Origin: Rhizophagus irregularis
Taxonomy: Eukaryota; Glomeromycota; Glomeromycetes; Glomerales; Glomeraceae
Reading direction: 5' to 3'
Assembly (NCBI RefSeq): GCF_026210795.1
Contig: NC_089460.1
Location: forward strand, 310,001-374,000
Length of the DNA: 64,000 nt
The translations under genes were made by a program, and so were the position numbers. The notes under the pieces were generated by a model, which worked only from the letters and a program-made list of their open reading frames with translations, had not been told where the DNA came from and did no database searches. This document shows, in pieces, positions 1 through 55,177 of the stretch; the first letter of the stretch is position 1, and each line of letters opens with the position of its first letter.

Positions 1-1980
1 TATTAGCCAATTACTGAACTCGCAAATCATCTTTCAACAACATGTTCTCCTAAACGACAAGAATTAATCACCAGAAAAGTTACTGCTTTTATTATCAAAA
101 ATGTTTAACCTTTATTTGTATTACAAAATCAAGCATTTCAAGATCTTTTATTAACATGTGAACTGGGTTATAAAATTCCCTGTGATAAATCTATTAAACA
201 AATGCTTTTTTTAGCATACACATGGAGTAAAAACAACTTCAATCCTTATTACAAGATACAGCAGTAACAGTACACCTGACGACTGATCTTTGGACATCTA
301 AATCCCGACATGGTTACCTTGGTGTGACTGCAACATGGTTAACTGCGGACTTTGAGTTTCAAGAAACTCTATTATCATGCAACCACCTTCCTTATCCTCA
401 CACTGGTGAGGTTATTTGTGAAGAATTATTTCAAATATTAGAAAGTTGGAATCTGAAATAAACAGCTTTTACAGTAGCAACTGACAATGGAATGAATATG
501 GTAAAAGCAGTTCGTTTATTAACAGAAAATTATTTTGACCAAATTCAACACCAGTCTTGTGTTGCACATACTTTGCAACTTTCAGTAATGGAAGGTTTAA
601 AGCAATGTAAAGCATTCCATCGTCGAATAAAAAGTTTACAGACCTTTTTTTGCTTACCTAAACAGGCTGAAAGACTTCATTCAGCACAACAACAAAATTT
701 CCAAATAAATTTATCTGAAAATGAATATATGAATCCACTAGAAGTTTTGACAGATGTCAAAACTAGGTGGAATTCTACATACTTAGCGTGGAAATGAATT
801 CTTGAGTTACATAATTTCATGAGAAATGTATCTACAGATTTACTCTCAAAATCTGACCGAGCATCTCAAAAAGAAGGTGAAAAGCTAGAACGATTATGTT
901 TAAGTCCAGATGAAAAAATGTAAATTTATTTATTTTTTTAGACAAATTAAATTCTTTCATTAATGTTTATATATTTTTAATAATAGATTTCTCCAGAAAA
1001 TGATTGTCACTTTGGAACCTTTTAAAACTATAACACGTAAAATTAGTGGTGCAAAATATCCAACATTAAGTCTTGTTATTCCATATATGTATTTACTTAA
1101 AAATAATTTTGCACCAAATGAGAAAGAAAATGAAACCTTAGATACCTATTTTAGTTTAATTTATGGATCTAATGGTGAAGAAGAGGATTCTGATGTGGCT
1201 AGTGATGATGAATATATTCCATCAGGTGGAACAAGACAATATTGGCAGCATTCACATCGTCAATTTCACCACCAAAGACGTGGAAATACACGAAATAGAG
1301 GTCAGAGTCGAGGTCGAGGTCGTAGAAGGGGTGGTGCATCCACATCTCATCCAGTTGAATCAAATTTGGATGATATAAATACTGTAGAATATTTACAGCC
1401 AGTAAATACTGAAGGTTTATTGCAAAAAGTTCGTGCTGCCATTTTTTTATCTTTAGATGAGCTTTGGACAGTGCCATCTAATATTATGCTTGTTGCAACA
1501 TTTCTGGATCCCCGCTTCAAAAACTTTGATTGGTGTAATGGTAATGGTAAGGATGAAGCTAAACAATTAGTTCAAGAATTGTATAATGCAAAAAAGGACT
1601 TTCTACCTCGAAATAGTATCAATAGTATTATAAGCTCTTCAGATGATGATGATGATATTTTTAAAGCACTAAAAGTTAATAAGGAAAGAGTGCAAGATGA
1701 TGATGAAGTGATGCTTTATTTGCAACAAAAACAAGTCAGATTGAAGGATGATCCATTAAAGTGGTGGTCAGTTAATGAGATTACTTTACCAATTTTAGCT
1801 CAAATTGCAAGAAAGTATTTATCCATCCCTGCAGCATCAGTACCTAGTGAGCGTCTATTCTCTGATGCTGGCAATCACATATCTGCTAGGCGGACCCGAT
1901 TATCTCCAGAGTTGGTAAACAAAATGTTGTTTTTAAAGAGAAATAGTGATATTTTTGATATTTTTCCTCCATTAAATTAG
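1..1980 (+). pseudogene. hAT transposase remnant (hAT-1)
   Basis: Degenerate hAT-superfamily DNA transposase. The RNase H-like core begins near 280 (LWTSKSRHGYLGVTATW), followed by a TDNG block near 480 and a conserved TRWNST block near 765. The C-terminal dimerisation region at about 1800-1940 contains ARKYLSIPAASVPSERLFS and LFLKRN, hallmarks of hAT. The reading frame is broken: a TAA near 458, a TGA at 795-797 where arginine fits, and a probable intron around 922-989. The largest open piece is 1000-1980. An arginine/glycine-rich stretch (GQSRGRGRRRGG) around 1280-1340 sits inside the helical insertion region and is unusual. The N-terminal BED finger lies outside the window or is lost before position 60. 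It is close in sequence to the second hAT at 52765-55177 and is not functional as it stands. Confidence 0.85.
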
Positions 1981-6529: not shown

Positions 6530-6852
6530 GGTTTTTTATTTAAAAATCTGTGCAGAACTTTGTTATTTATAAAATCTGCGCAGTTTTTTATTGGATTTTT
6601 CCTCTAATGTTTTGCGCCAGGATATAAGATCTGTGCAGATATAATTTCTGAAAATCTGCACAGATCTGCTCCCCAAAAAATTTCCCGATGATTTGTACTA
6701 ATTATTTTAAATTAATTCAAAGATTTAATTTTTGAAGATTGTCGCAGAACTTTATTTTCTTGAAGTTCTGCGCAGAAATCATAAAAATTTTTTCTTTGCA
6801 GTATCGCACCAGGGTATAAGATCTGTGCAGAAATAATTTCTGAAATCTGCGT
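6530..6852. repeat. Two-copy tandem repeat that is the retrotransposon target
   Basis: Copy 1 (about 6530-6705) and copy 2 (from about 6718) share AGATCTGTGCAGA.ATAATTTCTGAAA and related CTGCGCAG motifs. Copy 2 stops at 6852 and resumes at 20073 with AGATCTGCTCCCTAAAAG, matching AGATCTGCTCCCCAAAAA of copy 1. The 13.2-kb retrotransposon therefore sits inside copy 2. Confidence 0.85.
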
Positions 6853-8298
6853 TGTCACCCCCGTCTGCCACCCGGCGGTAAACAAGGTTCCCTGCTTCTG
6901 TTATATGTGCTCTCAGCGAAACATTAACATTCTTGCTTGATTTAGTTTTATTACTACTTAACTTTCAAATTGCGATAGCTCTCGCCACGATATTTCATCC
7001 ATTATCTTCTTTCAAAATACGATAGTTCTCTTTACAAAAGTTTATATTTTATTCATTTCATAATTCTTGTTATGACATTAAATTCACCATGAATTTGTCC
7101 AATTAAAATTAATTAAGCGAACATTACAGTAAAGTTTAGGGCGAACCTATTACCTTTAAAATAACATTACGCTTTACTAACAATTAATTAAACAAAATTA
7201 CTTTTTCATCATAAGAAAATAGTAACAAAAACAATCGAAACAATTAATTTTCATATAAAGGGTATTTTATTTATTCTTCATGAAATTCACAATTAACTAA
7301 TTTACTTAAAGTTTTACATCGTATCTGACGACTGTGGAATTCACCTCCCATTCCGCTCCTATTTAAACCAACTTTCTTATTCTTTCTTTTCTTACTTCTT
7401 ATTTCTTTCTAATATTTTATATGTTATCTTTTATGCGCTATCTTATATGCTATTTATATATTATCTTTTCTAATATGTTATACTATTTTAATACGCTATC
7501 TTTTCTTTAAAATAAAATAATCTTTCAAATATTATATCGTAAAGATCCATCTTTTGTGGCTATGCTATCTTTTCTTTAAAATAAAATAATCTTTCGAATA
7601 TTATATCGTAAAGATCCATCTTTTGTGACTGTGCTATCTTTTCTTTAAAATAAAATAATCTTTCAAATATTATATCGTAAAGATCCATCTTTTGTGGCTG
7701 TGCTATCTTTTCTTTAAAATAAAATAATCTTTCAAATATTATATCGTAAAGATCCATCTTTTGTGGCTGTGCTATCTTTTCTTTAAAATAAAATAATCTT
7801 TCAAATATTATATCGTAAAGATCCATCTTTTGTGGCTGTGCTATCTTTTCTTTAAAATAAAATAATCTTTCAAATATTATATCGTAAAGATCCATCTTTT
7901 GTGGCTGTGCTATCTTTTCTTCTGCGTCTCGTCAGCTATTCTTCTACTGCGGCTGCAGTTCATCAATATTTTACATGTTCCTATTTTTTTTGTTCCTTTA
8001 ATTCGCTATCCTTCCTTTTTATATGATTTATCATTTGTGGCTTATGATTACTCCTCCTAATTGTTCCTATTGTTGAACTTGATAAACTGGTTGCTAAGCC
8101 ACATCGATCAACTCCCCACTTGATCTATTGGTTCCCCGTTAATCATTTAATAAACATTACATCATGTAGATCATTCCTTCTCCTAAAAGTTTATCCTTTC
8201 CGGTTAATTTTATCCAATCATGCGACTTTCTATCGTTTGATCTTTTATTCCATATTATTCCTCCATATTATGCGATTACTTCAGTATCTATGGCTACA
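6853..8298 (-). repeat. 3' LTR
   Basis: Direct repeat of 18623-20068 at an offset of 11,770 bp. On the plus strand it starts TGTCACCCC and ends GGCTACA, giving the usual TG...CA termini. It contains a six-copy 69-bp tandem array. Confidence 0.95.
7497..7916. repeat. 69-bp tandem repeat in the 3' LTR
   Basis: About six copies of a 69-bp unit (ATCTTTTCTTTAAAATAAAA ... TTATATCGTAAAGATCCATC). Because 69 is a multiple of 3, the minus strand reads as a repeated 23-residue peptide beginning MDLYDIIFERLFYFKEK. I treat that as a by-product of the LTR repeat, not a gene. It may be a promoter or enhancer repeat. Confidence 0.85.
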
Positions 8299-8320
8299 GT
8301 TTGCCCCCCACCTAAAATTT
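8299..8320 (-). promoter_or_regulatory. Polypurine tract
   Basis: On the minus strand AGGTGGGGGGCAAAC lies immediately 5' of the 3' LTR. This is the expected place and composition for the plus-strand DNA primer of an LTR retrotransposon. Confidence 0.75.
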
Positions 8321-8328
8321 GAGTCCCA

Positions 8329-9516
8329 TCAAATTCGAACTATTACTTCAAAATTTGTCCTATCAATATATTCTTTCAGTAATTCACCATTTACTGGTGT
8401 TTTCAATATCTTCCCTTCCATAGTTTTAATTCTGTATGATCCTTTAGAAATTATCTCATGTACATAATAGGGTCCTTTCCATTTTTCTTCTAACTTTCCA
8501 GACCATTGTTTTTCTTTTGCTGCGTCATAATATAGTACTTTATCTCCGATTTGTAATTTCTGCTTTATTCTATTCTTTTTATCATGGTACGATTTTTGTT
8601 TTTCCTGAGATTTCCTGACATTTTCTTTAGCTTGATTCCTAATGTTTGGTAATCCTTCGATCAACCCATTAACTCTCTCTGCCATGGTAATTTCCTTATC
8701 TTCTAAATCTAATAATGTCTTCATTTGTCTCCCATATATTAAATATCCTGGTTCCATTTTCGTTGAATCATTCCTTTTAGTTCGATACGCGAACAATACT
8801 CCTGGTACTTTCAAATCCCAATCTTCGATATTACTTAGCTTTGCTAATGATTCACATAATGTCTTATTAAATCTTTCAATTAACCCATTAGTTTTTGGAT
8901 GATAAGGCGTTGAAAAGTTATGTTTTATCTGAAATTCCTCCATTAATGATTTCACTAATTTATTATTGAAATGACTCCCTCTATCACTCAATATCTTCTT
9001 TGGACATCCATGCCTACATATTATATCTTCATAAATAAATCTTGCAATTTCCTTAGCATCTGCTGTTTCCAATGCCTTTGCTTCAGGCCATTTTGTAAAA
9101 TAATCCATCGCTGTAACTATATATCTATTATTTCTCTTTGTTACTGGTAATGGTCCCACTACATCAATCCCAATTTGATAAAATGGTTCTATAACTTTGA
9201 TTACATTCAGTTCATGTTTTCCTATTGGTTTTCCTCTTCTCTGACAATTATTACATGATTTGACATAAGCTTCCACATCTTTTCTCATCCCTTTCCAATA
9301 ATACCCATCCTTGATCCTATTATACGTTGCATCTATTCCAAAGTGTCCTGATAATTCATGATCATGAGCTATGTACATTAATTCTTCAAATTCGTATTTT
9401 CTTATCACTCTTAGTCTTTTCTCATCTTTTATTTTGTAAATTAATCCTCCTATAATTTCATATTCCCGTTCGTCGTTGATATTCCTCGCTATCCTATTAT
9501 ATTCTTCCTCTTCCAT
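8329..9516 (-). CDS. Retrotransposon integrase
   Basis: 395 residues. It inserts the reverse-transcribed DNA into chromosomes. An N-terminal HHCC zinc-binding module is visible at about residues 50-95 (AHDHELSGHFG ... CNNCQRR). The catalytic core follows with D in GIDVVGPLPV, D in LSDRGSHFNN and E in GLIERFNKTL, so the DDE triad is complete. The C-terminal part (about 315-385) has KWKGPYYVHEIISKGSYRI, resembling the Gypsy GPY/F module; no chromodomain is seen. It is not fused to the RT frame: about 230 bp with a short tandem repeat and stops lie between, and a stop lies a few codons before the first ATG. It could be made from a spliced or separate transcript, or have been split off by repeat expansion. 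Confidence 0.9.
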   Translation of the reverse strand: MEEEEYNRIARNINDEREYEIIGGLIYKIKDEKRLRVIRKYEFEELMYIAHDHELSGHFGIDATYNRIKDGYYWKGMRKDVEAYVKSCNNCQRRGKPIGKHELNVIKVIEPFYQIGIDVVGPLPVTKRNNRYIVTAMDYFTKWPEAKALETADAKEIARFIYEDIICRHGCPKKILSDRGSHFNNKLVKSLMEEFQIKHNFSTPYHPKTNGLIERFNKTLCESLAKLSNIEDWDLKVPGVLFAYRTKRNDSTKMEPGYLIYGRQMKTLLDLEDKEITMAERVNGLIEGLPNIRNQAKENVRKSQEKQKSYHDKKNRIKQKLQIGDKVLYYDAAKEKQWSGKLEEKWKGPYYVHEIISKGSYRIKTMEGKILKTPVNGELLKEYIDRTNFEVIVRI

Positions 9517-9530
9517 GTCTATGTTGTAAT

Positions 9531-9650
9531 TCTAAAAGCTAAAGTGTTGTAAAAGGTTGAAATGTTATAAAAGGTTGAAGTGTTGTAAAAATTAAGGTGT
9601 TGTAAAAATTAAGGTGTTGTAAAAATAAAGCGTCGTGATAACTGTTCCAT
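9531..9650. repeat. Short tandem repeat between polymerase and integrase ORFs
   Basis: About six imperfect 17-19 bp units of the AAGGTGTTGTAAAAATT type. It separates the integrase frame from the upstream frame and could have disrupted an ancestral fusion. Confidence 0.75.
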
Positions 9651-9746
9651 ATATTTTTAATTTTTATCTCTTGATTTATTTTTGATCCTTGGTATTTCTA
9701 TCCTTCTTATATATTTTTCATTCCCTACAATCAATTTAGATCGTAC

Positions 9747-9998
9747 TCATCCTAATCCTTTTTCTATTGGTCTTTCTTCTATTATCATATTGTTTCCATC
9801 TTCCATAATTAATTTCACCTTTTTCTCTTTTAGTCTTATTATAATGTGTACACCTACTAGTATGAAGTCTTCTTCTTCTTCAATCCTTAAATGGATAATT
9901 GTTTCGTTCTCTTCTTCTTTTATGGTCACTTTCCATATCTTATCGACCTTTACTCGATAAGTAAGAAACCAATTCATATAACAATCTCCTAATACCAT
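9747..9998 (-). CDS. Small ORF downstream of the kinase domain
   Basis: 83 residues, in the same frame as the RT-kinase ORF and separated from it by TAA at 10014-10016 plus five sense codons. It is strongly beta-like and charged (WKVTIKEEENETIIHLRIEE). After its own TGA (9747-9749) the frame stays open for about 30 more codons, rich in Lys/Arg. That TGA may therefore be a decayed CGA, and the original protein may have been about 115 residues or a C-terminal extension of the polyprotein. I do not recognise the domain; it may have been a linker before integrase. Confidence 0.45.
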   Translation of the reverse strand: MVLGDCYMNWFLTYRVKVDKIWKVTIKEEENETIIHLRIEEEEDFILVGVHIIIRLKEKKVKLIMEDGNNMIIEERPIEKGLG

Positions 9999-10013
9999 TT
10001 TGGAAATATAATT

Positions 10014-12347
10014 TTAAGCTCTTTGGTGTTTTTCTATCTCCTTATATACTTTTCTCCAACTACTATCGTCATTCCTAACTTCAATTTGACTGTATCTTTT
10101 GGTATCTTTATATACATCCTGGTTTTCTTTAAACATTTTAACCATGTCCAAATATTCATTTTTCTTTAATGTTGGGTATGACGATTTCTCCATTTTCTTC
10201 GTTTCTCTTCCAATATAATTTTCCCAACATACATCACCATCTTTTTCCAAAAATATCACTATTGATTCATCTATCGTTCCTTTTAATCTGAATATTTCTT
10301 TTTCCATCTCATGGTTCCCATGTGGAGTAATTAATCCTCTGTTGAAACTTTTCGTCTTCTGATAATAATATTCGCAATATGGCGATTTGTCTAGAATTAT
10401 TATATCCGTATCTTCATCATATTCTAACATTCTTCTGTTTATTTGTTCTACTACTTCCTTTCTAAATTTCCATTCTGTTTCTAATTTTGATTCGTGAAAT
10501 TCACCTTTGTCTTTTCTTCTCCTTTTGAATGTATTAAATCTTACTTTTAATCCTTGCTTTTCCCACTCTTTAATCAAATTTTGTACTATACTTGTTTTTC
10601 CTAATCCATCCACCCCGTCGATTATAATAACTTGTGGCTTATTTTCTCTTCCCAATTTCTTTAATAATTCTTTTTCTGTCCTTTCCTCCAAATTCAAAAG
10701 TATTGCTTCTTTATCGGTAAAATATTTTTCATCATCCCATCTCCCTTTGAATCTTTTAACATTATACCATTTATTCCTAAATTTGATATATCTCAATTTC
10801 CCCTTATTACTTTCTATTTTTGTTATTTCTTGATTCTCGTTCCTTTCTGTTTCTTTTTCTTTAAATCTCAGTCTTGATAATCCATCTGCATTTTTAATTT
10901 TCTTTCCACTTCTATGTACTATTTTAAAATCAAATTGTTGTAATTTCATTACCCATCTTGCTCTCCTTCCCGTTTGTTCCTTTCCATCTGTTAATCCTTT
11001 TAATGCTGCGTGATCTGTTATCACTATAAATTTCCTTCCTACTAAATATTTCTGAAAATGTTGTATTCCCCAAAATACCGCTAAGCATTCCAATTCTGTT
11101 GGTGGATAATTCTTCTCTGCTCCAACTGTACTCCTACTTGCGTAAGCTATTACAACCTCTTTATTTTCTTCATTCATTTGAGCTAACACTGCTCCTAATC
11201 CTATCTTAGATCCATCAGTTATCAATATAAATTCTCTGCTGAAATCCGGATATACTAAAATTGGATTTTCTGTCAATTTTGTCCTTAATACGTCAAATGC
11301 TTCTTGTTGTTCTTCTTTCCATTCAAACTTTTCATTCTTTCTTGTTAAGTTAAGCAAAGGTTTTGCTATCTTCGAAAAACCTTTTATAAATCTCCTATAA
11401 TATGAACATAATCCTAAAAATGATCTTACTTCTGTGACAGTTTTCGGCCTCCTCATATTTTCTATTTTCTCAACTTTCTCTTTATCCGGTCGCAATCCAT
11501 CTCTTCCTACTATATGCCCTAAGAAATTTATATTTCTCAATCCAAACTGACATTTCTTCAATTTCACAATCATATTATTCTCTCTCAATTTACTCAATAC
11601 TTTATCTACATGTTCTATATGTTCCTCAAAATCTTCTGAATAAATCATTATATCATCTAAATATACCGTAACAAATTCTCCTATATATTCTTTTAATATT
11701 TTATCCATTAATCTCTGAAATGTTCCTGGTGCATTCTTCAATCCAAATGGCATAACATTGTATTCATATAATCCTTGTGAACAAATGAATGCTGTTTTCT
11801 CTTTATCTTCTTCTGCCATTTCTACTTGATGATATCCTGCTGCTAAGTCCAAACTTGTGAACCAACTTCCCTTTCTAAATTTTTCTAACAATTCGTCTAT
11901 CCGGGGTAAAGGATATTCATCTGACTTTGTCACATTATTTAGCTTTCTATAATCTATACAAAATCTATAATTTCCAGTTTTCTTTCCTGCTAACGTTACT
12001 GGAGACGCCCAATTACTCCACGATTCTCTTATCTTCCCCATCTTTAACAATTGTTCAATTTCTTTCTTTATAAACTTTCCTTTTTCATCAGTTTCTTTAT
12101 ATCTCTTTTGTGCTATTGGTCCTTGATTTTCTTCAATTATTATTTCATGTTTAACTGTATTTATCCTTCCCAGTTTCTCTTCGTCATATTCGAATATATC
12201 TTCATATTCCCTTATCAATTTTTTAAATGCTATTCTCTCCTCATCACTCACTTCTCCCAGATGTGTTTTCTTTTCAAATTTTTCTTCTTTGCTCTCATTT
12301 AGCATCTTTACCGTCTCTCCTTCATTCAGAAAGCCAAGACCATTCAT
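10014..12347 (-). CDS. Reverse transcriptase-RNase H-thymidylate-kinase-like polyprotein
   Basis: 777 residues. RT spans about residues 70-330: EYPLPRIDELLEKF, FTSLDLAAGYHQVEM, FGLKNAPGTFQRLM and the catalytic YLDDIMIYS box are all present. RNase H follows (ITDGSKIGLGAVLAQ, ELECLAVFWG, ITDHAALKGL, ADGLSR). After a tether of about 80 residues comes a domain of about 205 residues (roughly 570-777) that begins IIIDGVDGLGKTSIVQNL, a P-loop of the thymidylate-kinase type. It continues with DKSPYCEYYYQ at the place of the family's DR(Y/F) motif and has a C-terminal half compatible in length with a whole dNMP kinase. That fusion is unusual for Gypsy elements. The ATG overlaps the protease stop as ATGA, a -1 relation, so expression may use reinitiation or frameshifting. 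Substrate (dTMP or another dNMP) is inferred from the motif only. Confidence 0.9.
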   Translation of the reverse strand: MNGLGFLNEGETVKMLNESKEEKFEKKTHLGEVSDEERIAFKKLIREYEDIFEYDEEKLGRINTVKHEIIIEENQGPIAQKRYKETDEKGKFIKKEIEQLLKMGKIRESWSNWASPVTLAGKKTGNYRFCIDYRKLNNVTKSDEYPLPRIDELLEKFRKGSWFTSLDLAAGYHQVEMAEEDKEKTAFICSQGLYEYNVMPFGLKNAPGTFQRLMDKILKEYIGEFVTVYLDDIMIYSEDFEEHIEHVDKVLSKLRENNMIVKLKKCQFGLRNINFLGHIVGRDGLRPDKEKVEKIENMRRPKTVTEVRSFLGLCSYYRRFIKGFSKIAKPLLNLTRKNEKFEWKEEQQEAFDVLRTKLTENPILVYPDFSREFILITDGSKIGLGAVLAQMNEENKEVVIAYASRSTVGAEKNYPPTELECLAVFWGIQHFQKYLVGRKFIVITDHAALKGLTDGKEQTGRRARWVMKLQQFDFKIVHRSGKKIKNADGLSRLRFKEKETERNENQEITKIESNKGKLRYIKFRNKWYNVKRFKGRWDDEKYFTDKEAILLNLEERTEKELLKKLGRENKPQVIIIDGVDGLGKTSIVQNLIKEWEKQGLKVRFNTFKRRRKDKGEFHESKLETEWKFRKEVVEQINRRMLEYDEDTDIIILDKSPYCEYYYQKTKSFNRGLITPHGNHEMEKEIFRLKGTIDESIVIFLEKDGDVCWENYIGRETKKMEKSSYPTLKKNEYLDMVKMFKENQDVYKDTKRYSQIEVRNDDSSWRKVYKEIEKHQRA

Positions 12348-12949
12348 TTTTCCTCATCTCTCTTTTCTCTATCAGTTTTTACAATCGATAACAACTCTTC
12401 TTTTTCCATCTCCTCATATTCATCTTCACCCTCCAACTCTTCACTAGAATTGCCATCTATATCATCTATATTCTTTGGATCTTCATTAAATTCACCCCTA
12501 TTCCCTGACTCCTCAAATTCAACATTTTTCTTTCCTCTAAAATCAATTGGTATTTCATATATTCCATTATCCCATTCTATTGTTAACAGACCTTCTTTCA
12601 TATTTATTATCCCATATCTTAATAAATCAGTTTCTAATATTAAATCTTTTCTTCTCGAGTCAATTACTTCGAACTCCAAAGGTATTTCTAAATTTTCGTC
12701 AATTTCTATTCTAATTTCCACTCTTCCTAATGAAGCTATGTTATTTCCATCCGCTATTGTCAATACAACATCACTTTTCTTTATTATTGGTATATTTAAT
12801 TCCTTTCTCAATTCATTCGTTATTACTGAAGGTCCTGCTCCTGTATCAACTAATGCTCTGATCATTTTTCCCTCAATTATTATATTACATCTTGTTGCTT
12901 GTGATTTTTCTTCTTTCTGATTAATATTCTTTAATTCCCCCGAGTGTAG
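12344..12949 (-). CDS. Retrotransposon aspartic protease
   Basis: The first ATG is at 12865 (173 residues), but the frame is open right back to the Gag stop at 12950. The residues before that ATG (CNIIIEGK) are typical of the protease's first strand, so the true N-terminus probably comes from Gag. The active site is ALVDTGAGPSVIT, followed by TIADGN and a hydrophobic DLILETDLL block as in retropepsins. The acidic C-terminal tail (GNSSEELEGEDEYEEMEKEE) has no known role. It would cleave the Gag and polymerase polyproteins. The stop overlaps the next ORF's start. Confidence 0.85.
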   Translation of the reverse strand, partial: LHSGELKNINQKEEKSQATRCNIIIEGKMIRALVDTGAGPSVITNELRKELNIPIIKKSDVVLTIADGNNIASLGRVEIRIEIDENLEIPLEFEVIDSRRKDLILETDLLRYGIINMKEGLLTIEWDNGIYEIPIDFRGKKNVEFEESGNRGEFNEDPKNIDDIDGNSSEELEGEDEYEEMEKEELLSIVKTDREKRDEEK

Positions 12950-12952
12950 TCA
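12950..12952 (-). promoter_or_regulatory. Candidate UGA readthrough site between Gag and protease
   Basis: Gag ends TAT TGA, and the next codons CTA CAC TCG continue in the same frame without a stop into the protease (16867 and 12865 differ by a multiple of three). UGA followed by CUA is a known leaky context. The alternative is a recent CGA-to-TGA mutation. Confidence 0.6.
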
Positions 12953-15900
12953 ATATCTCAAACCATTTAATAATTTCTTCCTTACTTCTGGTCTTTCATT
13001 CATCATTTGTCCCCAATTAATTGGTACGCTTGAATTTACAAATTGCTCAAATGGATCAAAATCTCCAACATTTGGTATATTTCGATTTAACTTCACTTTC
13101 TCGTTTGTACATTCTCTAGCAAAATGTCCTTGTTGTCCACAATTGCGACACCTATTATTATTCTTTCTAGTTTCATATCCTTTCTGTAATTGTTCTTTTG
13201 TAAAACCCCTCTTATTATTCCCCTGTGCTTTTTGCTGTTGTCCTTGCCATTGTGCATTTCTTCTTCTATCTCTTTCATCATTCATAACCTTGTCTTTATT
13301 TCTTTCACTCTTTCTAGGTGGTACTGGGAACATATCGTATCTTTCCTCATCTTCATAGTTATTCACTTCGTATCCATCGAATCCATTATTATAGTTATCA
13401 TATCCATCACCCTCATTATATCCATCATATTCATCATTATATTCCATATTATACACATTATATCCTTCACCATAATATTCTTCATCAAGGTAATTAACTT
13501 GATTATTTTGGCTATATGACCCTCTATTATTTCCTCCAGATGATCTTCTTTGACCTTCCCTACAAACTCTAGAAGTATGTCCTTTTCTTCCACATGTATA
13601 GCAAGTCATTCTATCCCAGTTCATATTATTTTTTTGGACATTATTATTTCCGATCGGTCTCCTATCATTCTCATTCCTTTGCATTACATATGCTTCATTT
13701 CTCTGCATTACATGTGCTTCCAACCTTTTTATTCCATTAATTAACTCATTCCATTCATCACTTTTAACTTCTTTATTTTGTAATTCTTTCGCAATTGGAT
13801 TCATTCCTTTATACTTATTTGTCTCTTCTTTCAAAATTTCTTCCATGTTTTTCTCTTGTCCTACTCGTTTCATATCCAACCCTGTTGTTTTCATTAACAA
13901 TTCATCTTTTGCTTCCTCTTCTCTTTTTGCTTCGTTAACTGCATCATTCAGATTCGTCGGATTACTTCTCCTAACATGATAACCTAGCATGGCATCTAAC
14001 CCTTGAATAAAATAATTCACTTGGTATAAATCATCTAACGCATGACCTCTAGTTGCAACTCTTAATATTGACCTAAATCTTCTAATATATTCTTCAACAC
14101 TTTCATTTGTTCCCTGTTTAATTCTTGTTAATTCTAACATTTTTCTTCTTTGAACATCATTCCTAGTAAATCTGTCGATTAATCTTCTTTTCAAATTTCT
14201 GTCCTCATTATGATCACACCAATTCACTAAATTAGCTGCTACCTTTTCTTTTTCTTCATTATACCATTGTAATGCGATTCCTCTCAAACAAGTTATGGCT
14301 ATATTTGCCTTATTCTGTCTACATACACCTCCTCCAACATTTCCTTCTGGTCGTCCGCTTACTGTAAATGCTATCTCAAATTGTCTAATCCAATCATTAA
14401 TATCTTCATCCTCTTTTCCACTAAAAGTTGGCATACCTACTATTCCCCCCATTCCTGCGGTCTGAATCCTATCAGCCAAAGTCTGTCCTGCTCCTAACGC
14501 ATTATCTAATGCATTTGGTGCCAATCCCATAGCATTCTCCATTATTCTTCTTATTTGTGCTTCATTTGCCATATTTACTATATTCTCTTGAAATAATTCT
14601 TGTAAATTGTAATCAGATATTTCACTTTCTGTGTCAGAATTTTTAAAATTTAATGAACTATTCGAATCTGAATTTTGACTCAGACCAAAACCTCCTGTAT
14701 TTATAACATTTTCGATTTCATTTTCAGATTCTTCTTCTTCAGAATCTTCATCACTTCCGTCCCATATTTCATCCGGACTTAATATTTCTCCAATCTTTTC
14801 TGAATTATCCGTATTGTCTTCTTCTGATTCTTCATTATCACTCTTTTCACCACTTTCTTCACTATCCATTACTCCTGCTTGTTCTTTCAACAACTTATCT
14901 AACTTTTTCTTCAATTCTTTTTCCGACTCATTCTTATTTTCTTGAAAGATTTCAATGAATTCTTTATCTAAAATTTCTCCATCTGTATATCCCATACTAG
15001 TTAATCTTAACAATTCTTCTTCAGTTATCATTGTTCCAATATCTTCAAAAATCTTTTGCAATCTTTTTACCCGATCATCAATTTCATCAATATCTTCTTC
15101 CTCACAATCTTTGCATATAGTTCCTTCTAATCTAAACATATCATTCATCCATCTTATTTCGCATCTTTCGCACCAGGTTGTGTTCTCATTTAACCATTTG
15201 TGCACCTCTTTTCTTAACTCTCTATCTTCTAATTCTATTATCCCCATATACCTTTCTATGAATCCTTCTGTTACTATTATTCGATTATTAACTCCAAAAT
15301 TTTTTATTCTTTGAATTTCCGATACATCTATTTCGTATCCTAATTTTTCTAAGTTGTTTTTTAGTTCTATTAATTCATCTTGTTCATCTTCCCGTATTTC
15401 CCGATTACATTCTTCACATCTGCCGTCTTCTTCCGATATCACATAATCTAATTTCTGTTTATTGCATCTACCACATATTTTTGTACTCAAATCTATCCAC
15501 TCCTTTATGTCTTCAGACTTATCAAATTTCCCCTCCTGAAAAATATAATATCTTATAAAATCATATGTCAACAGTACTCCCGTCTCTATCTTTTCTTTTA
15601 TTCCAAATTTCATTATTTCTCTGATGAATTCTTCTTTTGGATTTACCATCAGTTGTCTTAATCCTGTCCTTATTTCACTTAACTTCCACGTTTTATCTTC
15701 TACTATTATTTCTATTTCTTCTTCAGAATCATACATTTCATTATCTTCTTCTTGTTTTATCTCCACTAACTTGAATTTTTGTGTTCTTTCCATTGTTTCT
15801 TTTAAATCTGTTACAACCCATTCTATTACACCATCATCTATTCTCAATATGATAGGATTTCTTGTATATATATCTTCGCTATCTTTAAATGTCATACTAT

Positions 15901-16867
15901 CCATTAGTTTTCTTACAGTATCTTCTTGCAAATTTTCTCCCTCAGATAACATCTTCTCGAACCATTCTGGTGAATCATTTTCATGATATGTATGTATTTG
16001 TTTACCTTCATATTTGTCATTCCACCAGTACCTAAATCTTTCAAATCTAAGATATAAACTCGTGTTAAAATTCTTTTTCATTTCGTAACTTTCTAAACTA
16101 TCTTCGCTTTCTGAATCTTCTGGTTCTTTTATAAAGCCCCTAGTATCTATAAATATTCTTATTATCTTTTGTACCATATTCCTGCGATATTCGTGAACAT
16201 TTTCTATGTCTATATTCCCATATTCCATATTGGACATTAATTCTTTTACTTTCTCCTCATTCGTAGCTATTCCTTCTTCTTCATAAAGTAATTCCCTGAA
16301 GGTCTTTATTGCTCCCATCTTTACCCGTAATGGTTTAACTTCTTTCGATGTGATCTTGTACCATTGCCAAAATTTTTCAAACCTTCTTTCAACATCCCAA
16401 TCTTCCAAAATATATTTGTGTTCTATTAATTCAGGATTCCCAATTAATCTATCAAATACTTCATTCTCTAAATCTCCTTCAATACAATCTCTTACAATTA
16501 CTAATATAATTGTTCGTAATCCTTTTTCTTTCATTTTTGGTTGTATTCTATATCTTATTGATTCTGTTATTCTATCCATTATGTCTCTACATTTTCCCTT
16601 GTGTATTGTATCTTCTCTTTCTGAATTATCCATACTTAATAAATCTATTACTCCCTTGATCGTTACATTATTATATATTATTATTGTATCTTCGAACTTA
16701 AATAATGCATCCCAAAATTTCTTGAATACCATTGGTTCATTTCCTATCGGATGACATAATTCACAATTTAAACATTCATCTAATTCTCCCGTTCTTAACT
16801 CATGTTCTTCTTTATGTATCCTATATTCACTTTCCCATTGATGGTACCATTCCATCGTATACTCCAA
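12950..16867 (-). CDS. Giant Gag protein with novel N-terminal half
   Basis: 1305 residues, far longer than usual Gag. Residues from about 766 (an internal Met, MANEAQ) form a recognisable retrotransposon Gag: LRGIALQWYNEEKE, RRKMLELTRIKQG and VEEYIRRFRSILRVA in the capsid part. Two CCHC zinc knuckles follow: CYTCGRKGHTSRVC near residue 1090 and CRNCGQQGHFAREC near 1240. They are separated by a Tyr/Asn/Gly/Glu-rich linker. The first ~730 residues are not a known Gag part. They include CLNCELCH near residue 33 and two CxxC...CxxC pairs (CGRCNKQ...CEEC and CERCEIR...CKDC) that look like zinc ribbons, then a very acidic Ser/Glu/Asp segment. It would build the particle and bind RNA; the N-terminal function is unknown. 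The start is the first ATG after the leader; the internal Met could give a shorter form. Confidence 0.85.
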   Translation of the reverse strand: MEYTMEWYHQWESEYRIHKEEHELRTGELDECLNCELCHPIGNEPMVFKKFWDALFKFEDTIIIYNNVTIKGVIDLLSMDNSEREDTIHKGKCRDIMDRITESIRYRIQPKMKEKGLRTIILVIVRDCIEGDLENEVFDRLIGNPELIEHKYILEDWDVERRFEKFWQWYKITSKEVKPLRVKMGAIKTFRELLYEEEGIATNEEKVKELMSNMEYGNIDIENVHEYRRNMVQKIIRIFIDTRGFIKEPEDSESEDSLESYEMKKNFNTSLYLRFERFRYWWNDKYEGKQIHTYHENDSPEWFEKMLSEGENLQEDTVRKLMDSMTFKDSEDIYTRNPIILRIDDGVIEWVVTDLKETMERTQKFKLVEIKQEEDNEMYDSEEEIEIIVEDKTWKLSEIRTGLRQLMVNPKEEFIREIMKFGIKEKIETGVLLTYDFIRYYIFQEGKFDKSEDIKEWIDLSTKICGRCNKQKLDYVISEEDGRCEECNREIREDEQDELIELKNNLEKLGYEIDVSEIQRIKNFGVNNRIIVTEGFIERYMGIIELEDRELRKEVHKWLNENTTWCERCEIRWMNDMFRLEGTICKDCEEEDIDEIDDRVKRLQKIFEDIGTMITEEELLRLTSMGYTDGEILDKEFIEIFQENKNESEKELKKKLDKLLKEQAGVMDSEESGEKSDNEESEEDNTDNSEKIGEILSPDEIWDGSDEDSEEEESENEIENVINTGGFGLSQNSDSNSSLNFKNSDTESEISDYNLQELFQENIVNMANEAQIRRIMENAMGLAPNALDNALGAGQTLADRIQTAGMGGIVGMPTFSGKEDEDINDWIRQFEIAFTVSGRPEGNVGGGVCRQNKANIAITCLRGIALQWYNEEKEKVAANLVNWCDHNEDRNLKRRLIDRFTRNDVQRRKMLELTRIKQGTNESVEEYIRRFRSILRVATRGHALDDLYQVNYFIQGLDAMLGYHVRRSNPTNLNDAVNEAKREEEAKDELLMKTTGLDMKRVGQEKNMEEILKEETNKYKGMNPIAKELQNKEVKSDEWNELINGIKRLEAHVMQRNEAYVMQRNENDRRPIGNNNVQKNNMNWDRMTCYTCGRKGHTSRVCREGQRRSSGGNNRGSYSQNNQVNYLDEEYYGEGYNVYNMEYNDEYDGYNEGDGYDNYNNGFDGYEVNNYEDEERYDMFPVPPRKSERNKDKVMNDERDRRRNAQWQGQQQKAQGNNKRGFTKEQLQKGYETRKNNNRCRNCGQQGHFARECTNEKVKLNRNIPNVGDFDPFEQFVNSSVPINWGQMMNERPEVRKKLLNGLRY

Positions 16868-18601: not shown

Positions 18602-18619
18602 TTCTCGGAGCATGCACCA
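18602..18619 (-). promoter_or_regulatory. Primer binding site
   Basis: Minus strand TGGTGCATGCTCCGAGAA starts 3 nt inside the 5' LTR boundary. It begins with TGG, as needed to pair with a tRNA 3' CCA. I could not identify the tRNA. Confidence 0.65.
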
Positions 18620-18622
18620 AAT

Positions 18623-20068
18623 TGTCACCCCCGTCTGCCACCCGGCGGTAAACAAGGTTCCCTGCTTCTGTTATATGTGCTCTCAGCGAAACATTAACAT
18701 TCTTGCTTGGTTTAGTTTTATTACTACTTAACTTTCAAATTGCGATAGCTCTCGCCACGATATTTCATCCATTATCTTCTTTCAAAATACGATAGTTCTC
18801 TTTACAAAAGTTTATATTTTATTCATTTCATAATTCTTGTTATGACATTAAATTCACCATGAATTTGTCCAATTAAAATTAATTAAGCGAACATTACAGT
18901 AAAGTTTAGGGCGAACCTATTACCTTTAAAATAACATTACGCTTTACTAACAATTAATTAAACAAAATTACTTTTTCATCATAAGAAAATAGTAACAAAA
19001 ACAATCGAAACAATTAATTTTCATATAAAGGGTATTTTATTTATTCTTCATGAAATTCACAATTAACTAATTTACTTAAAGTTTTACATCGTATCTGACG
19101 ACTGTGGAATTCACCTCCCATTCCGCTCCTATTTAAACCAACTTTCTTATTCTTTCTTTTCTTACTTCTTATTTCTTTCTAATATTTTATATGTTATCTT
19201 TTATGCGCTATCTTATATGCTATTTATATATTATCTTTTCTAATATGTTATACTATTTTAATACGCTATCTTTTCTTTAAAATAAAATAATCTTTCAAAT
19301 ATTATATCGTAAAGATCCATCTTTTGTGGCTATGCTATCTTTTCTTTAAAATAAAATAATCTTTCGAATATTATATCGTAAAGATCCATCTTTTGTGGCT
19401 GTGCTATCTTTTCTTTAAAATAAAATAATCTTTCAAATATTATATCGTAAAGATCCATCTTTTGTGGCTGTGCTATCTTTTCTTTAAAATAAAATAATCT
19501 TTCAAATATTATATCGTAAAGATCCATCTTTTGTGGCTGTGCTATCTTTTCTTTAAAATAAAATAATCTTTCAAATATTATATCGTAAAGATCCATCTTT
19601 TGTGGCTGTGCTATCTTTTCTTTAAAATAAAATAATCTTTCAAATATTATATCGTAAAGATCCATCTTTTGTGGCTGTGCTATCTTTTCTTCTGCGTCTC
19701 GTCAGCTATTCTTCTACTGCGGCTGCAGTTCATCAATATTTTACATGTTCCTATTTTTTTTGTTCCTTTAATTCGCTATCCTTCCTTTTTATATGATTTA
19801 TCATTTGTGGCTTATGATTACTCCTCCTAATTGTTCCTATTGTTGAACTTGATAAACTGGTTGCTAAGCCACATCGATCAACTCCCCACTTGATCTATTG
19901 GTTCCCCGTTAATCATTTAATAAACATTACATCATGTAGATCATTCATTCTCCTAAAAGTTTATCCTTTCCGGTTAATTTTATCCAATCATGTGACTTTC
20001 TATCGTTTGATCTTTTATTCCATATTATTCCTCCATATTATGCGATTACTTCAGTATCTATGGCTACA
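18623..20068 (-). repeat. 5' LTR
   Basis: Same length and ends as the LTR at 6853-8298, with four substitutions found by eye. It should hold the element's promoter for minus-strand transcription. Confidence 0.95.
19267..19686. repeat. 69-bp tandem repeat in the 5' LTR
   Basis: Same copy number and the same single-unit CTTTCGAATA variant as in the other LTR. The array was therefore inherited as a whole during reverse transcription and has not since changed in length. Confidence 0.85.
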
Positions 20069-20194
20069 GCGTAGATCTGCTCCCTAAAAGATTTCCTGAT
20101 GCCAGTGTTACATTAAGTATCTTCCTAACTGGTTTTTTTTGTTAATTTGTCCTATTAGTATTAGCGTATAATCCTGTTGTGTATATACGAATTT

Positions 20195-20802: not shown

Positions 20803-20956
20803 TAAAGTTGCCTGCCAAAATTAGGGAGTTTCAGCATGTCAAAATTGTCAAAACTATTTCAGCATTTCGACAAATCAGAGAGCCAATGTTGAAATGTCAA
20901 AATAGTTTTGATAATTTCAACATACCAAAACTCACTAATTTTGGCAGGCAACTTTA
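20803..20956. mobile_element. 154-bp MITE with TAAAGTTGCCTGCC ends
   Basis: Perfect 14-bp terminal inverted repeat TAAAGTTGCCTGCC / GGCAGGCAACTTTA with a largely palindromic interior of GTCAAAAT and CATTTCGAC motifs. No exact TSD is left (GTCGAGCT versus GTCATAGG). It shares ends and interior with the large nested element at 56971-59395. Confidence 0.8.
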
Positions 20957-39923: not shown

Positions 39924-42900
39924 TTGCCAATACCAAAGCAGCAAAAAAAAGCAGAAGCATTACAAGAACTTGTACGTACTAAGCCTAACCTTAAAGGAAA
40001 AATGGTATATTTTTTTCCAACATTAGATAAATATTTTGAAGGTGTGCTTATGTATGAAGTAAAGGATAAGAAAGCATATGTATATGTATATAGCGTCAAA
40101 GATAATCGCAAATTTGACACATTTTCCAAATGGATAGATTATTTGGGAAACTGAGGATATTTTAAAGGACGTAGGTCTGCTACAGCAACCATTTTTTTGG
40201 AAGCAAATCCTACAAGTCCGTCAATTGCATCTATTTTATCTACATCAAATTCATTATATTGGAAAACATCATTGTTAATAAACACCACAGATATTCTTTC
40301 ATCAATTCAAGAAAAAGTTAAACCGGGAGGAGAGTTTTCTGGAACTGCAATACGAAAAATTAGTGAAGGTCTTGAACTTCATTTTTTCAAAGAAGAAAAA
40401 TCAGAAAAAAAGCTATTGATTCTAACTAAGAGTGGTTTTTATAGATATGAAGTTTATATATTTGATCAAATAGTAAAAGAAAAATATCTTCCTTTTCCAA
40501 TCAAAGAAATGAAAAGAACTCTTGATGAAATAATTAATTTTATTAGATATGTTTTTTCTGTTAGTATTTGTTATGGACAAAGTACTGCTGGTAATTAATT
40601 ATTATTTTTTATTTTTTATTTATTTATATACGTAAATTTTATTTGATAATTTTTATTCAAAGGTTTTGAACAAGTAACACATATTCGGGGTACTCAACTA
40701 GTTAGCAATAATAAAGATCATACTCCTTTTGCTTTAATGGAACGGATTGGTCAACCTGATGAGGTATATAGAAGAATAGATTGTATACTTGTAATAACAG
40801 AAAAAAATATATGCAAAAATTGTGCAAAATTACGAAAAACTTTACAAAGAATTCAACAAAGAATTTTGTCTGGAACAAACTCAATAAAAGTAACACATGC
40901 ATCAAAAGAAACTCTTATAAAAAAGGTTAGCCAACAGAGAAAGATTATTAAAGAACAAAATAATATAATTATTGATTTAAAAGATCATTTAAAAGAAAAA
41001 AATTGAAAGGGAAGAAGAAGAAGCATCAGGTGAAATTGCAAATATTGTTCATACTGTTACTAAAGGTATTATTAACAAAGATATAGATATTTCTGCTTTT
41101 CATCCTATTTTTCAAGAACTTATTCGTATTCAAACTGAAAAACCAAATGGAACAAGATATCATCCAATGTAAGGTTAATTAAGATGATATTAAATATGAA
41201 AAATATCTTATATTTTTAATTTTTTAGGTTTTTACGTTGGGCTATATCTGTATATAGTAGATCAGGTCATGCAGCTTATAATGCAATGAAAACAATTATG
41301 CGTTTACCATCAATTTCAACACTTAAAAGTTATATTAACGAAAGTGAACAAAAATCAGGCTGGCAAGATAAAATTGCTAATCAAATATTAGCTAATTTGA
41401 CAATAAATAAAATTTGGGGATATGGAAGAGTGGGATTTTTTTCTCATGATTCTTTTAAAATTCAAAAAGGTAAAAATTATTATTATTTTTAAATTTTTTC
41501 AATAATTTATATTTAATTATTTAATTTGATTGTAAAACATCTAAAAATAGGTCTTCTTTGGAGTCAACGTAAAAATTGTTATGTTGGTTATTTGGATTTT
41601 GAAAATGAAATGCAAGAGTATGAGATGTTTGCTATGCAATGTAAACAAGAAATAGAATCAATATCAATAGAAGATAATTCTACATCAAGTAATAAACAAA
41701 AATTTGGACTTGCAACCCAAGTTCATCAAATTGTTTGGCATTCAATAACACATAATTTTGCATTTCCCATATCTTATTATGGTATTAATAATATATCAAT
41801 ACATAGTTTAAATACATTACTTTTTAATTTTGCAGCAAAATTAGAGTGTATAGGTATATATACATGTGGATCAATTTGTGATGGAGCAGGAGAAAATAGA
41901 ATTCATATTAAAAGTTTTGATTGGTATGCATCAAAATGGACTTGTGGTGATATTGTAGAAGTTAATTTTAATAAAGATAAAACATCTTTTTATGCAGCAA
42001 AAATTATAAATAGTAATTTTGAAAAAACAAAATTTACTGTATGTCAACTTGATTGTAATAATCCTAAAAATATTGAAATTGAACGAAATTTTATTCGTCT
42101 ACCAATGCCTTCAAAATTGAAATGGAATGTCAATGAAATATGCGAATTTAGAAATCCAGATGATAATAAATGGTACTTAGGAAAAATTATTGAGTTTGAT
42201 CCAGTTGAAACAACATTATCTGTAGAAATTATAGAAGGAATATATGCAAAAAAGGGATGGAAAGTTTTTAGTTATCATATTAGTAAGTTTCTTAGACCTG
42301 TTTATAATAATCAAGAAATTTTATTAAATTATAAAACAATCAATCCTATTACAGGAGAAGAGTGGTTTTTTATTAGTGATCCAACACATGTTTTTAAAAA
42401 ACTTAGAAACAACATATCAAAAAGTCATACAGGTGAAAAAAATGCAAGAGAAATAATGTTTAATAAAAAGGAAATTAGTTGGAAACATATAAAAGGTGTA
42501 TATGAATATACAAATAAACATGCAACTGCTAAAGCTACCAAACTTACAAAATGACATATATGGCTTACTTCATGGAGTAAGATGCGTGTTGATCTTGCTG
42601 AGCATACATTATCAAAAGAAGTTGAAGATGCACTAGCAACTATTAAAGAACTTAAAAATATATCAGAAGGAACAAGAGTAAGTAATTATTAATTTATAAT
42701 AATTAATTTCTTTAAAAAAAACTAATAATAATAATTTATTTTAAGGATTATATCAAATATTCACGAAAGTATCGTGAAATAATGCATAGTAAAATTAATT
42801 TTCAATCTTTAGAAGATCCACGTATCAATACTTTAAAACAAATTCGTGATTGGTTTATATGTGGTGATAAACAAAAGACAGAATCTAAAGAGTGGATTTC

Positions 42901-52764: not shown

Positions 52765-55177
52765 ATGGCAGATAGCTCAGATTTTTATCCCAATGAAGAT
52801 TTTAACTTTGAGATGACGGATGTTGTGTTAGAACAGCAAATCAAAGCACCTGAAAGTTCAAAAACTTCACATGAGTCAGTAATTACTAGAAAACTACACG
52901 CCATTCAAAGAACCCTTCCCTTTTCTACAATATCCTCAGAAATCAAAGAAAAAGGTAGAGTTTAAATTTTTAAAGATTATAAATTTATTAAATTGCAATA
53001 AATTATTATTTATATTATTAATATAATTAATTTTTTTTTTATCTAGGCGAACTTCCTGAGACTAATATTAAATATAAGCGTAAAAAACCATCATTTACTC
53101 AGGAGTATTTTGAAAAAAAGGCTAATGATAAAGGTGAAGAAATCTGAGTTTGCAATATTTTAGATAAAAATGGAATAAAATGTGGTCAAGAATATAAATG
53201 TGGAAGAAGTGGAAGTTCAACGGGCAATTTGATCATGCATCTTAGAGATAAACATAATATTGTACCAGATGATGATGCAGATATTTCAAAAAAGGTAAAT
53301 TTAATATTGACTGTTGAGTATTTATTAAATTTTTTTTTAAATACTTCATAATGTTAATTTTTAGCCGTGAAACTCTAAAATTACTGATTTTGCACGAAGT
53401 CATAAACCTCATCCTAAGCATATTCAAAAAAGATGTGAAGAAGCGACCCTTAAATGGATGTTGCTCACAAATCAACCTCTTTCTGCAGTTACTAATGAAG
53501 CCTACAAAGAAAAAATGGCAGAATTCGATCCTTCCTTCATTATTCCAGGAGAAAAAAAAATCAGGACAATGATCGTTAAGAGTTACAAATTTAATCGGGA
53601 AAATTTGCAAAATCTTCTTACCAATACTGCTGAAAATGTCTCTCTTACAATTGATCTTTGGTCTAGTAAAGCCAAGCATGGGTATTTAGGAGTTACTGCA
53701 ACCTGGATTACATCAAATTTTGAAATCAAAGATACAATGTTAGAAAACAAATATGTTTCTTCTCCACATACCAGTGAAATTATTGCCAATGAACTTCACC
53801 AGTGTATTGAAACTTGGAATCTTGAAAATCATGTAACTTCAATTACCACTGACAACGGATCCAATATGGTGGCAATTTTTCCTTTCTTAAATCAGAAAAA
53901 TGGGTGTGAAAATATCCAGCGCCTTCCTTGTACAGTACACACTCTTCAATTGGCAATCGGAAAGGGATTGGCTTCAGCAGAGATTTTAGTAGCACGTGCA
54001 AAAAGACTAATTAATTTTTTTCAATATCAAAAACAGGTGGAAAGGTTAGAGCAGGTGCAGAGAAAACTTGGCTATAAAGATATTTTGCGTTGTATTCAAA
54101 ATGTATCTACATGATGGAACTCGTCTTATTATGCTTGGGATCGTTTATTTTTTTTAAAGGATGCTATTATTCAACTACAGACTGATTTATCCATGTCAAC
54201 AGATCGGGAAATCAAGAAAGATGGTAATAGATTGAAGAGATTGTTACTTAATGATGATGAATGGGAGTTGTTAGATCAACTTGTTGATTTGCTAATGCCA
54301 TTTGAGGAGGCAACACGTGAATTTTCTGGAAATTCATATATTACCTTAAGTCGAGTTATTCCAACAATTAAAGAAATGATTTTTGATTTGCTACTGAAGT
54401 ACCGTTAAATAGTGATGATTTTTCAAATGAGGATACTGTATTTGAATCAGAAGCTGTAGAAACACAACAAACTGACTTTGATGATGATGAAATTATAAGT
54501 AATATTACAAAGAAAAAGATTTCAATTAAAAATCCATTAAATACAGTAGGCGTTTTGGAAAAAGTAAAACAAAATATTTATAGTGCATTGATATTTTACT
54601 GGAATATTCCAAATGATCTTGGTTTAATGGCAGCTTTATTAGATCCTCGTTATAAAAGCTTGGATTTCCTAGATGAGGAAAAAAATAACGAATTATCCAA
54701 AAACTCCGCAGTGAATTTGGTGAAGTGAAAATACCAGCATCTGAACCATTAAACAACCCAGCTTCATATGATGCAGAACCTTCACGTTCACATAAAGAAT
54801 ATCGTCAATGACGGCAAATAAAAAATAAAAAGGGAGATAAATCATATTCAAGCACACCAATTGTTGATGAAATTACAAATTATTTGACATTACCATTAGC
54901 ATTGGAAACCGAAAATCCTTTAATTTGGTGGAAATTACGGTTGCAAATGTTTCCAAAACTTGCCAGAATTTCCCGAAAATATCTTGCAGTTCCTGCGACG
55001 TCAGTGTCAAGTGAGCGGTTGTTCTCAGATGCCGGAAATCTTATCAATGCTAAAAGGATAAATTTAGACACAAATTTAGTGGCTAAAATACTATTTTTAA
55101 AATGAAATATTAAAACAATGCATGTTTTTGCATCAGAATGGGACGAAGATGAAACAAGTCATGTTGAGATAGATTAG
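52765..55177 (+). pseudogene. hAT transposase (hAT-2), decayed
   Basis: ATG at 52765. Exon 1 runs to about 52955 and joins 53047. A BED-type zinc finger follows (CNILDKNGIKCGQEYKCG ... NLIMHLRDKH, 53150-53255). An intron at about 53296-53365 precedes the RNase H-like core (LTIDLWSSKAKHGYLGVTAT, TTDNGSNM, CTVHTLQLAIGKG). The C-terminal dimerisation block is ARISRKYLAVPATSVSSERL, then LFSDAGNLIN. Lesions: TGA at 53145, TGA at 54112 (in the TRWNS block), frameshifts near 54400 and 54690, and TGA at 55103 where hAT-1 has Arg. The frame then continues to TAG at 55175. The gene structure is complete but inactive. Confidence 0.85.

Follow-up and report, generated by a model that had tools for sequence, protein, structure and literature searches.

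A maintained kinase domain in the Pol polyprotein of a Ty3/Gypsy retrotransposon of Rhizophagus irregularis

What is a kinase doing in the polymerase polyprotein of a retrotransposon? The question is raised by a 64,000-nucleotide stretch of the arbuscular fungus Rhizophagus irregularis (the window, positions 310001-374000 of contig C32 in a genome of 146.7 Mb and 32 contigs), where a Ty3/Gypsy element carries a pol open reading frame (ORF) that continues well beyond reverse transcriptase (RT) and RNase H. An original prediction, made from the letters alone, saw in this continuation a thymidylate-kinase-like domain fused behind RNase H and supposed that it might serve reverse transcription. As detailed below, the domain is stably maintained in the element family, is assigned by its predicted fold to the thymidylate kinase (TMPK)/deoxynucleoside kinase (dNK) superfamily and appears to have moved between element families.

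The kinase domain and its copies

The pol frame spans 12353 to 10014 of the minus strand (779 residues counted from the stop, first ATG at 12347) and joins RT, RNase H and kinase without interruption, as the predicted fusion demands. The ADGLSR of RNase H ends at residue 494, which leaves the 285 codons that had been announced, and both the P-loop and the DKSPYCEYYYQ block are found where they were first noted.

10014..12353, minus strand: pol ORF, 779 amino acids (aa), with RT, RNase H, pre-kinase extension and kinase
11508..11984, minus strand: RT core, aa 124-282 (PF00078, E 1.7e-41)
10932..11321, minus strand: RNase H, aa 345-474 (PF17919 and PF17917)
10635..10871, minus strand: extension between RNase H and kinase, aa 495-573
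10017..10634, minus strand: kinase domain, aa 574-779, assigned to the TMPK/dNK superfamily
10593..10616, minus strand: P-loop GVDGLGKT, aa 580-587
10359..10391, minus strand: DKSPYCEYYYQ block, aa 655-665, at the site of TMPK DR(Y/F) or dNK ERS
10203..10229, minus strand: probable lid start CWENYIGRE with an invariant Arg, aa 709-717

A Pfam scan of this Pol revealed no dUTPase domain at E up to 0.1 and no Nudix domain.

The domain is not peculiar to this copy. When 150 of 172 candidates in the same genome were scored, 151 kinase matches were obtained, and among the 150 listed, 122 cover at least 190 of the 206 residues without a stop (hand count), 20 are shorter than 190 residues and 8 more contain stops. 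Conversely, of 348 RT candidates 104 were scored, every one of them at least 65% identical to an RT of group D (the copies fall into groups A, which includes the window element, B, C and D), and a kinase lies within 7 kb downstream of 103 of these 104, the listed kinase of the exceptional copy being about 15.9 kb further on. Selection was estimated as the mean ratio of non-synonymous to synonymous divergence (dN/dS, Nei-Gojobori) within groups, identical rows being merged and stretches with stops or less than 90% coverage excluded, which favours intact copies. For the kinase, dN/dS is 0.200 in A (n=16), 0.044 in B (n=7), 0.085 in C (n=8) and 0.132 in D (n=2), in line with the purifying selection that the original prediction had proposed to look for; for RT it is 0.064 (n=17), 0.028 (n=5), 0.079 (n=4) and 0.026 (n=2), and for integrase, in A to C, 0.100 (n=17), 0.064 (n=6) and 0.115 (n=6). 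Compared with integrase, the kinase thus has the lower value in B and C and the higher one in A. Taken together, the number of copies, their linkage to RT and the dN/dS values show that the element maintains this kinase, which is not the capture of a single copy.

Its place in Pol is constant in the rows scored for it, while the ORF borders are not. The kinase sits between RNase H and integrase in all 29 rows (of 44) in which the three domains were scored, one of which, L004, is the window copy again. In the copies inspected, RT, RNase H and kinase share a single frame in A (779 aa), B (706 aa) and C (777 aa), and the border shifts in D, where a 493-aa RT ORF is followed by a 600-aa kinase-integrase ORF. 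Two overlapping frames for RT and kinase were considered for group B and rejected in favour of the one 706-aa ORF. The pre-kinase extension of the window element recurs in group C and is almost missing from group B.

Among public proteins, the best match (96% identity over 90% of the query stretch) is named Rhizophagus irregularis DAOM 197198, others are named R. clarus, Glomus cerebriforme and, for a match over part of the length, R. diaphanus, and one R. clarus protein (P0028) joins RNase H, kinase and integrase. As exceptions to this layout, in a locus of the same genome (L046, C6:4454486) and in another R. clarus protein (P0035), whose kinase runs on into an integrase zinc-binding domain, a coiled-coil-like stretch rather than RT precedes the kinase; these are possibly non-autonomous or rearranged elements. 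Among public metagenome proteins named 'thymidylate kinase', at least P0021 and P0024 contain an RNase H as well and resemble pieces broken off kinase-bearing retroelements.

The element itself is a young, complete Ty3/Gypsy long terminal repeat (LTR) retrotransposon of 13,216 bp on the minus strand. Its domain order (protease, RT, RNase H, integrase) is that of Ty3/Gypsy, and it has the TG...CA LTRs, short target duplication and tRNA primer site of an LTR retrotransposon.

6849..6852: target site duplication GCGT, one copy
6853..8298, minus strand: 3' LTR, 1446 bp, TG...CA
8299..8313, minus strand: probable polypurine tract AGGTGGGGGGCAAAC
8329..9531, minus strand: integrase ORF (H2C2 and rve)
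12344..12949, minus strand: aspartic protease ORF
12950..16867, minus strand: gag ORF (Retrotrans_gag and two CCHC knuckles)
18604..18619, minus strand: primer binding site, complementary to the tRNA-Gly(GCC) 3' end plus CCA
18623..20068, minus strand: 5' LTR, 1446 bp, TG...CA
20069..20072: target site duplication GCGT, other copy

The two LTRs differ at 4 positions, and within each a 69-bp unit is repeated in 6.2 tandem copies (7495-7921 and 19265-19691). Directly after the 5' LTR, TGGTGCATGCTCCGAG forms the primer binding site. Once CCA is removed, the complement of this site is present at 91 places in the genome (the reversed control at 0); of four such places inspected in three regions, three end a tRNA-Gly(GCC) gene and one (L051) gave no tRNA. 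The interval of about 480 bp between the kinase and integrase ORFs (9532-10013) contains a TTTTTACAACACC-like repeat that ends in ACAACATAG ahead of the integrase ATG, an arrangement that looks like a 3' splice site. A short way beyond the element lies an inverted repeat (20803-20956, 70-nt arms, 84% complementary), and three further stretches of the window (964-1980, 41517-42554 and 53371-54114), with a hAT dimerisation region, a TNP-like RNase H and a weak, below-cut-off DUF659 match, are likely DNA transposon remains.

Fold, motifs and substrate

Which kinase is it? Pfam Thymidylate_kin (PF02223) matches the isolated window domain (E 9.4e-5, 22.6 bits), each of the 13 rows in an alignment (A1) of copies from the same genome, 55-99% identical to it (E up to 0.1), and 42 of 49 family members (E up to 0.01), as opposed to 8 of 49 for dNK; the dNK family PF01712 is absent among the families matching the window domain. 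With the NCBIfam model TIGR00041 the window domain scores 19.9 against a curated 83.25, and when a single E. coli TMK was compared with the kinase family profile only the P-loop aligned. The improved fold model, which is of high predicted quality (predicted local distance difference test, pLDDT, 93.7; predicted template modelling score, pTM, 0.90), has deoxynucleoside and nucleotide kinases as its best matches among solved structures, and over the kinase domain it fits the fold of dTMP kinases and of dNKs equally well (a Z tie). The preference for TMPK alone that a first model gave (pLDDT 64.5, all 50 listed matches thymidylate kinases) disappeared with the better one. FtsY, the top sequence match among solved structures (E down to 7.8e-7), was rejected: its match spans the beginning of the P-loop and the residues ahead of it, and, as FtsY has no rank in the fold search, it was discounted as P-loop similarity. 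Pfam and the predicted structure thus show membership of the TMPK/dNK superfamily, which upholds the kinase part of the original prediction; thymidylate kinase proper is one possible reading, given the dNK tie and the acceptor-site residues.

Those residues give a mixed picture. The P-loop follows GxxGxGK(S/T), and its Lys, the Asp of the DKS block and the lid Arg are invariant in the 13 rows. Thymidylate kinases have a DR motif after strand 3, and hold thymine with a Phe and an Arg. Here, all 13 rows read DKS instead, and the Phe fits, while the Arg can be placed only with a three-residue gap in a helix. The motif series claimed at the outset thus departs in one point, DKS standing for DR(Y/F); the lid is a probable assignment. 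In short, the domain shares with PF02223 the fold, P-loop, DR-motif Asp and lid Arg, and differs from it in DK, in a thymine Arg that is not clearly placed and in its sub-cut-off score; Staphylococcus aureus TMK, the top row of the fold search, is 13% identical. With PF01712 it shares the fold and an S-x-Y-C/S-E pattern in the DKS block. Deoxynucleoside kinases have a catalytic Glu after strand 2, which is missing here: the profile aligns what we take to be its site to an Asn that is invariant in alignments A1 and A2, with a run of mainly Lys and Arg behind it (N-x-F-K-R-R-R-x-D in the majority of rows). On sequence grounds, this combination favours an acceptor already phosphorylated.

Scoring nine reference kinases, several of them partial, against the family profile gave 38.3 bits for the host dNK, 4.4-14.3 for six thymidylate kinases and 3.7-3.9 for two insect dNKs. 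The host score was given little weight because of its bias term (10.4), and may reflect shared letter bias since the insect enzymes score so low. This host dNK (L048, C28:1224011-1224604) lies in one open frame of 336 aa matching PF01712 at E 1.2e-31.

Probable exchange between element families, and Nudix-linked relatives of the kinase

The history of the kinase differs from that of the rest of Pol. In trees of up to 18 chosen rows of the 44 (RT 15, RNase H 16, integrase 16, kinase 18), group A joins group C for RT, RNase H and integrase (supports 99, 99 and 100), and the A-with-B topology is rejected (p 0.0014, 1.7e-67 and 0.0039, respectively), whereas the kinase tree joins A with B (support 100) and rejects A with C (p 0.0005); these p values are not blind, because the groups were named after the identity mosaics had been seen. 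In 30-residue windows, A and B are 50-83% identical over residues 81-500 and 90-96% over residues 591-740. That this high identity is due to stronger constraint alone was rejected because synonymous divergence between A and B (three pairs) is lower in the kinase too: 0.57-0.70, compared with 1.34-1.71 in RT, 2.2-2.3 or saturation in integrase and 0.85-0.88 in RNase H, which for that reason offers the weaker contrast. Replacement of the kinase domain by recombination between families is the simplest reading, and the tree conflict supports its movement as a cassette.

Where might the domain have come from? Three full-length metagenome proteins (P0123, P0141 and P0142) are fusions of a Nudix hydrolase with a kinase homologous to that of the window (32-36% identity for P0123). 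Two partial proteins (P0146 and P0147) have both domains, a third (P0144) has a Nudix match at E 2.4e-4, and P0143 and P0145 contain the kinase side only. In the full-length fusions Nudix precedes the kinase and neither RT nor integrase is matched, whereas the window kinase lies in an RT-bearing Pol. Residues just ahead of the retroelement kinase align to the tail of the Nudix portion (residue 119 onwards in P0123), which hints, as a lead only, that a former Nudix domain may have been lost. No relative of the retroelement kinase or of the Nudix-kinase fusion was confirmed in scans of viral and prokaryote contigs covering records with a match to any of a small set of peptide patterns, and nothing like the Nudix part was found in the fungal genome by a scan run without a positive control.

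Possible role and comparison with known systems

We consider, with moderate confidence, that this is a Gypsy element with a maintained Pol kinase that would supply deoxynucleotides for reverse transcription and has moved as a cassette. The enzyme would phosphorylate nucleoside monophosphates, deoxynucleotides most probably, at the site of cDNA synthesis, and so might raise the deoxynucleotide supply in hyphae or spores with little DNA replication, a role parallel to that of dUTPase in lentiviral Pol; it may, as originally proposed, raise local deoxythymidine triphosphate. More tentatively, this kinase may act together with RT in the particle, share an ancestor with Nudix-kinase sanitation enzymes and have been traded among families as a module.

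Several points weigh against a deoxynucleotide-supplying enzyme of this kind. As regards the element, (i) for 46 of the 150 listed kinases, the 7 kb upstream contain none of the listed RT copies (with 104 of the 348 RT candidates scored and some kinase rows being fragments), (ii) in each of the four groups dN/dS is higher for the kinase than for RT, most markedly in A and D, and (iii) the host already owns TMPK-like stretches and a dNK. As regards the enzyme, (i) the window domain remains below the Thymidylate_kin cut-off of 27 bits, (ii) its identity to listed solved kinases is 8-18%, (iii) TMPK and dNK structural neighbours tie, (iv) profile-profile comparison gave 97.5% for a dNK set and 93.8% for a TMK set, driven by the host dNK, and (v) DK stands where TMPK has DR, and the thymine-contacting Arg is not placed.

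The best surviving rival, which we nevertheless think unlikely, is a deoxynucleoside salvage kinase, making monophosphates from nucleosides taken up or recycled rather than dTDP from dTMP. The structural tie and the host dNK score would suit it; the scores of the insect dNKs, the few family members matched by PF01712 and the invariant Asn with its basic stretch in place of the base Glu do not. Somewhat less probable still is a P-loop protein that inherited the fold and not the small-molecule activity, be it a scaffold, a regulator or a kinase of nucleic-acid ends: its acceptor-site letters match neither TMPK nor dNK fully and its basic stretch could bind nucleic acid, but P-loop, DK and lid Arg are retained in rows 55-99% identical to the window, which suggests phosphoryl transfer. 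A functionless chance capture or read-through in one copy is practically untenable and was rejected, with at least 150 genome matches, RT linkage, dN/dS well below 1 and public matches named R. clarus and Glomus cerebriforme. Neither weakness that the original prediction had itself named, a C-terminal region unlike any P-loop kinase structure or a capture confined to this copy, was found, because the fold matches the superfamily, 103 of 104 scored RT copies are linked to a kinase and the domain is under purifying selection.

Should the kinase indeed feed reverse transcription, nucleotide supply would limit retrotransposition in a long-lived, multinucleate symbiont, and retroelements would have met this limit with different enzymes at the same Pol site. 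Cassette exchange is a natural experiment on swappable Pol modules, and metagenome entries such as P0021 and P0024 are a warning to annotators that a 'thymidylate kinase' may be a retroelement piece.

How does this compare with known systems? Non-primate lentiviruses, as the relevant passage of PMC4531489 has it, carry dUTPase between RNase H and integrase, that is, a deoxynucleotide-metabolism enzyme at the junction where one is predicted here; theirs removes dUTP, whereas the fungal Gypsy element has a P-loop kinase of another fold. Bdelloid rotifer LTR elements have dUTPase between protease and RT (PMC5408684, whose main text lacks the word 'kinase'). Fungal Gypsy elements such as PosPlaTy3 of Postia placenta resemble ours in combining Ty3/Gypsy with an added nucleotide enzyme, but their dUTPase, thought by the authors to have been acquired independently from different sources, lies at either Pol terminus or at the protease-RT junction (PMC2864245, in the sections concerned). 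The main texts of two papers on R. irregularis transposable elements (PMC8647823 and PMC11075540) do not contain 'thymidylate', and in the literature searched (titles and top listings, with few subscription journals and preprints) no thymidylate, deoxynucleoside or Nudix-linked kinase in LTR/Gypsy retrotransposons came to light. The orchid Gypsy lineage that, in the part of PMC9289625 describing it, fixed an AlkB-like domain (an additional ORF with an RNA demethylase) is comparable in having fixed an extra enzymatic domain, although not one of nucleotide metabolism. Retroelements with an added enzyme are already known, and what appears to be new is the added, maintained nucleotide-type kinase in a Gypsy element.
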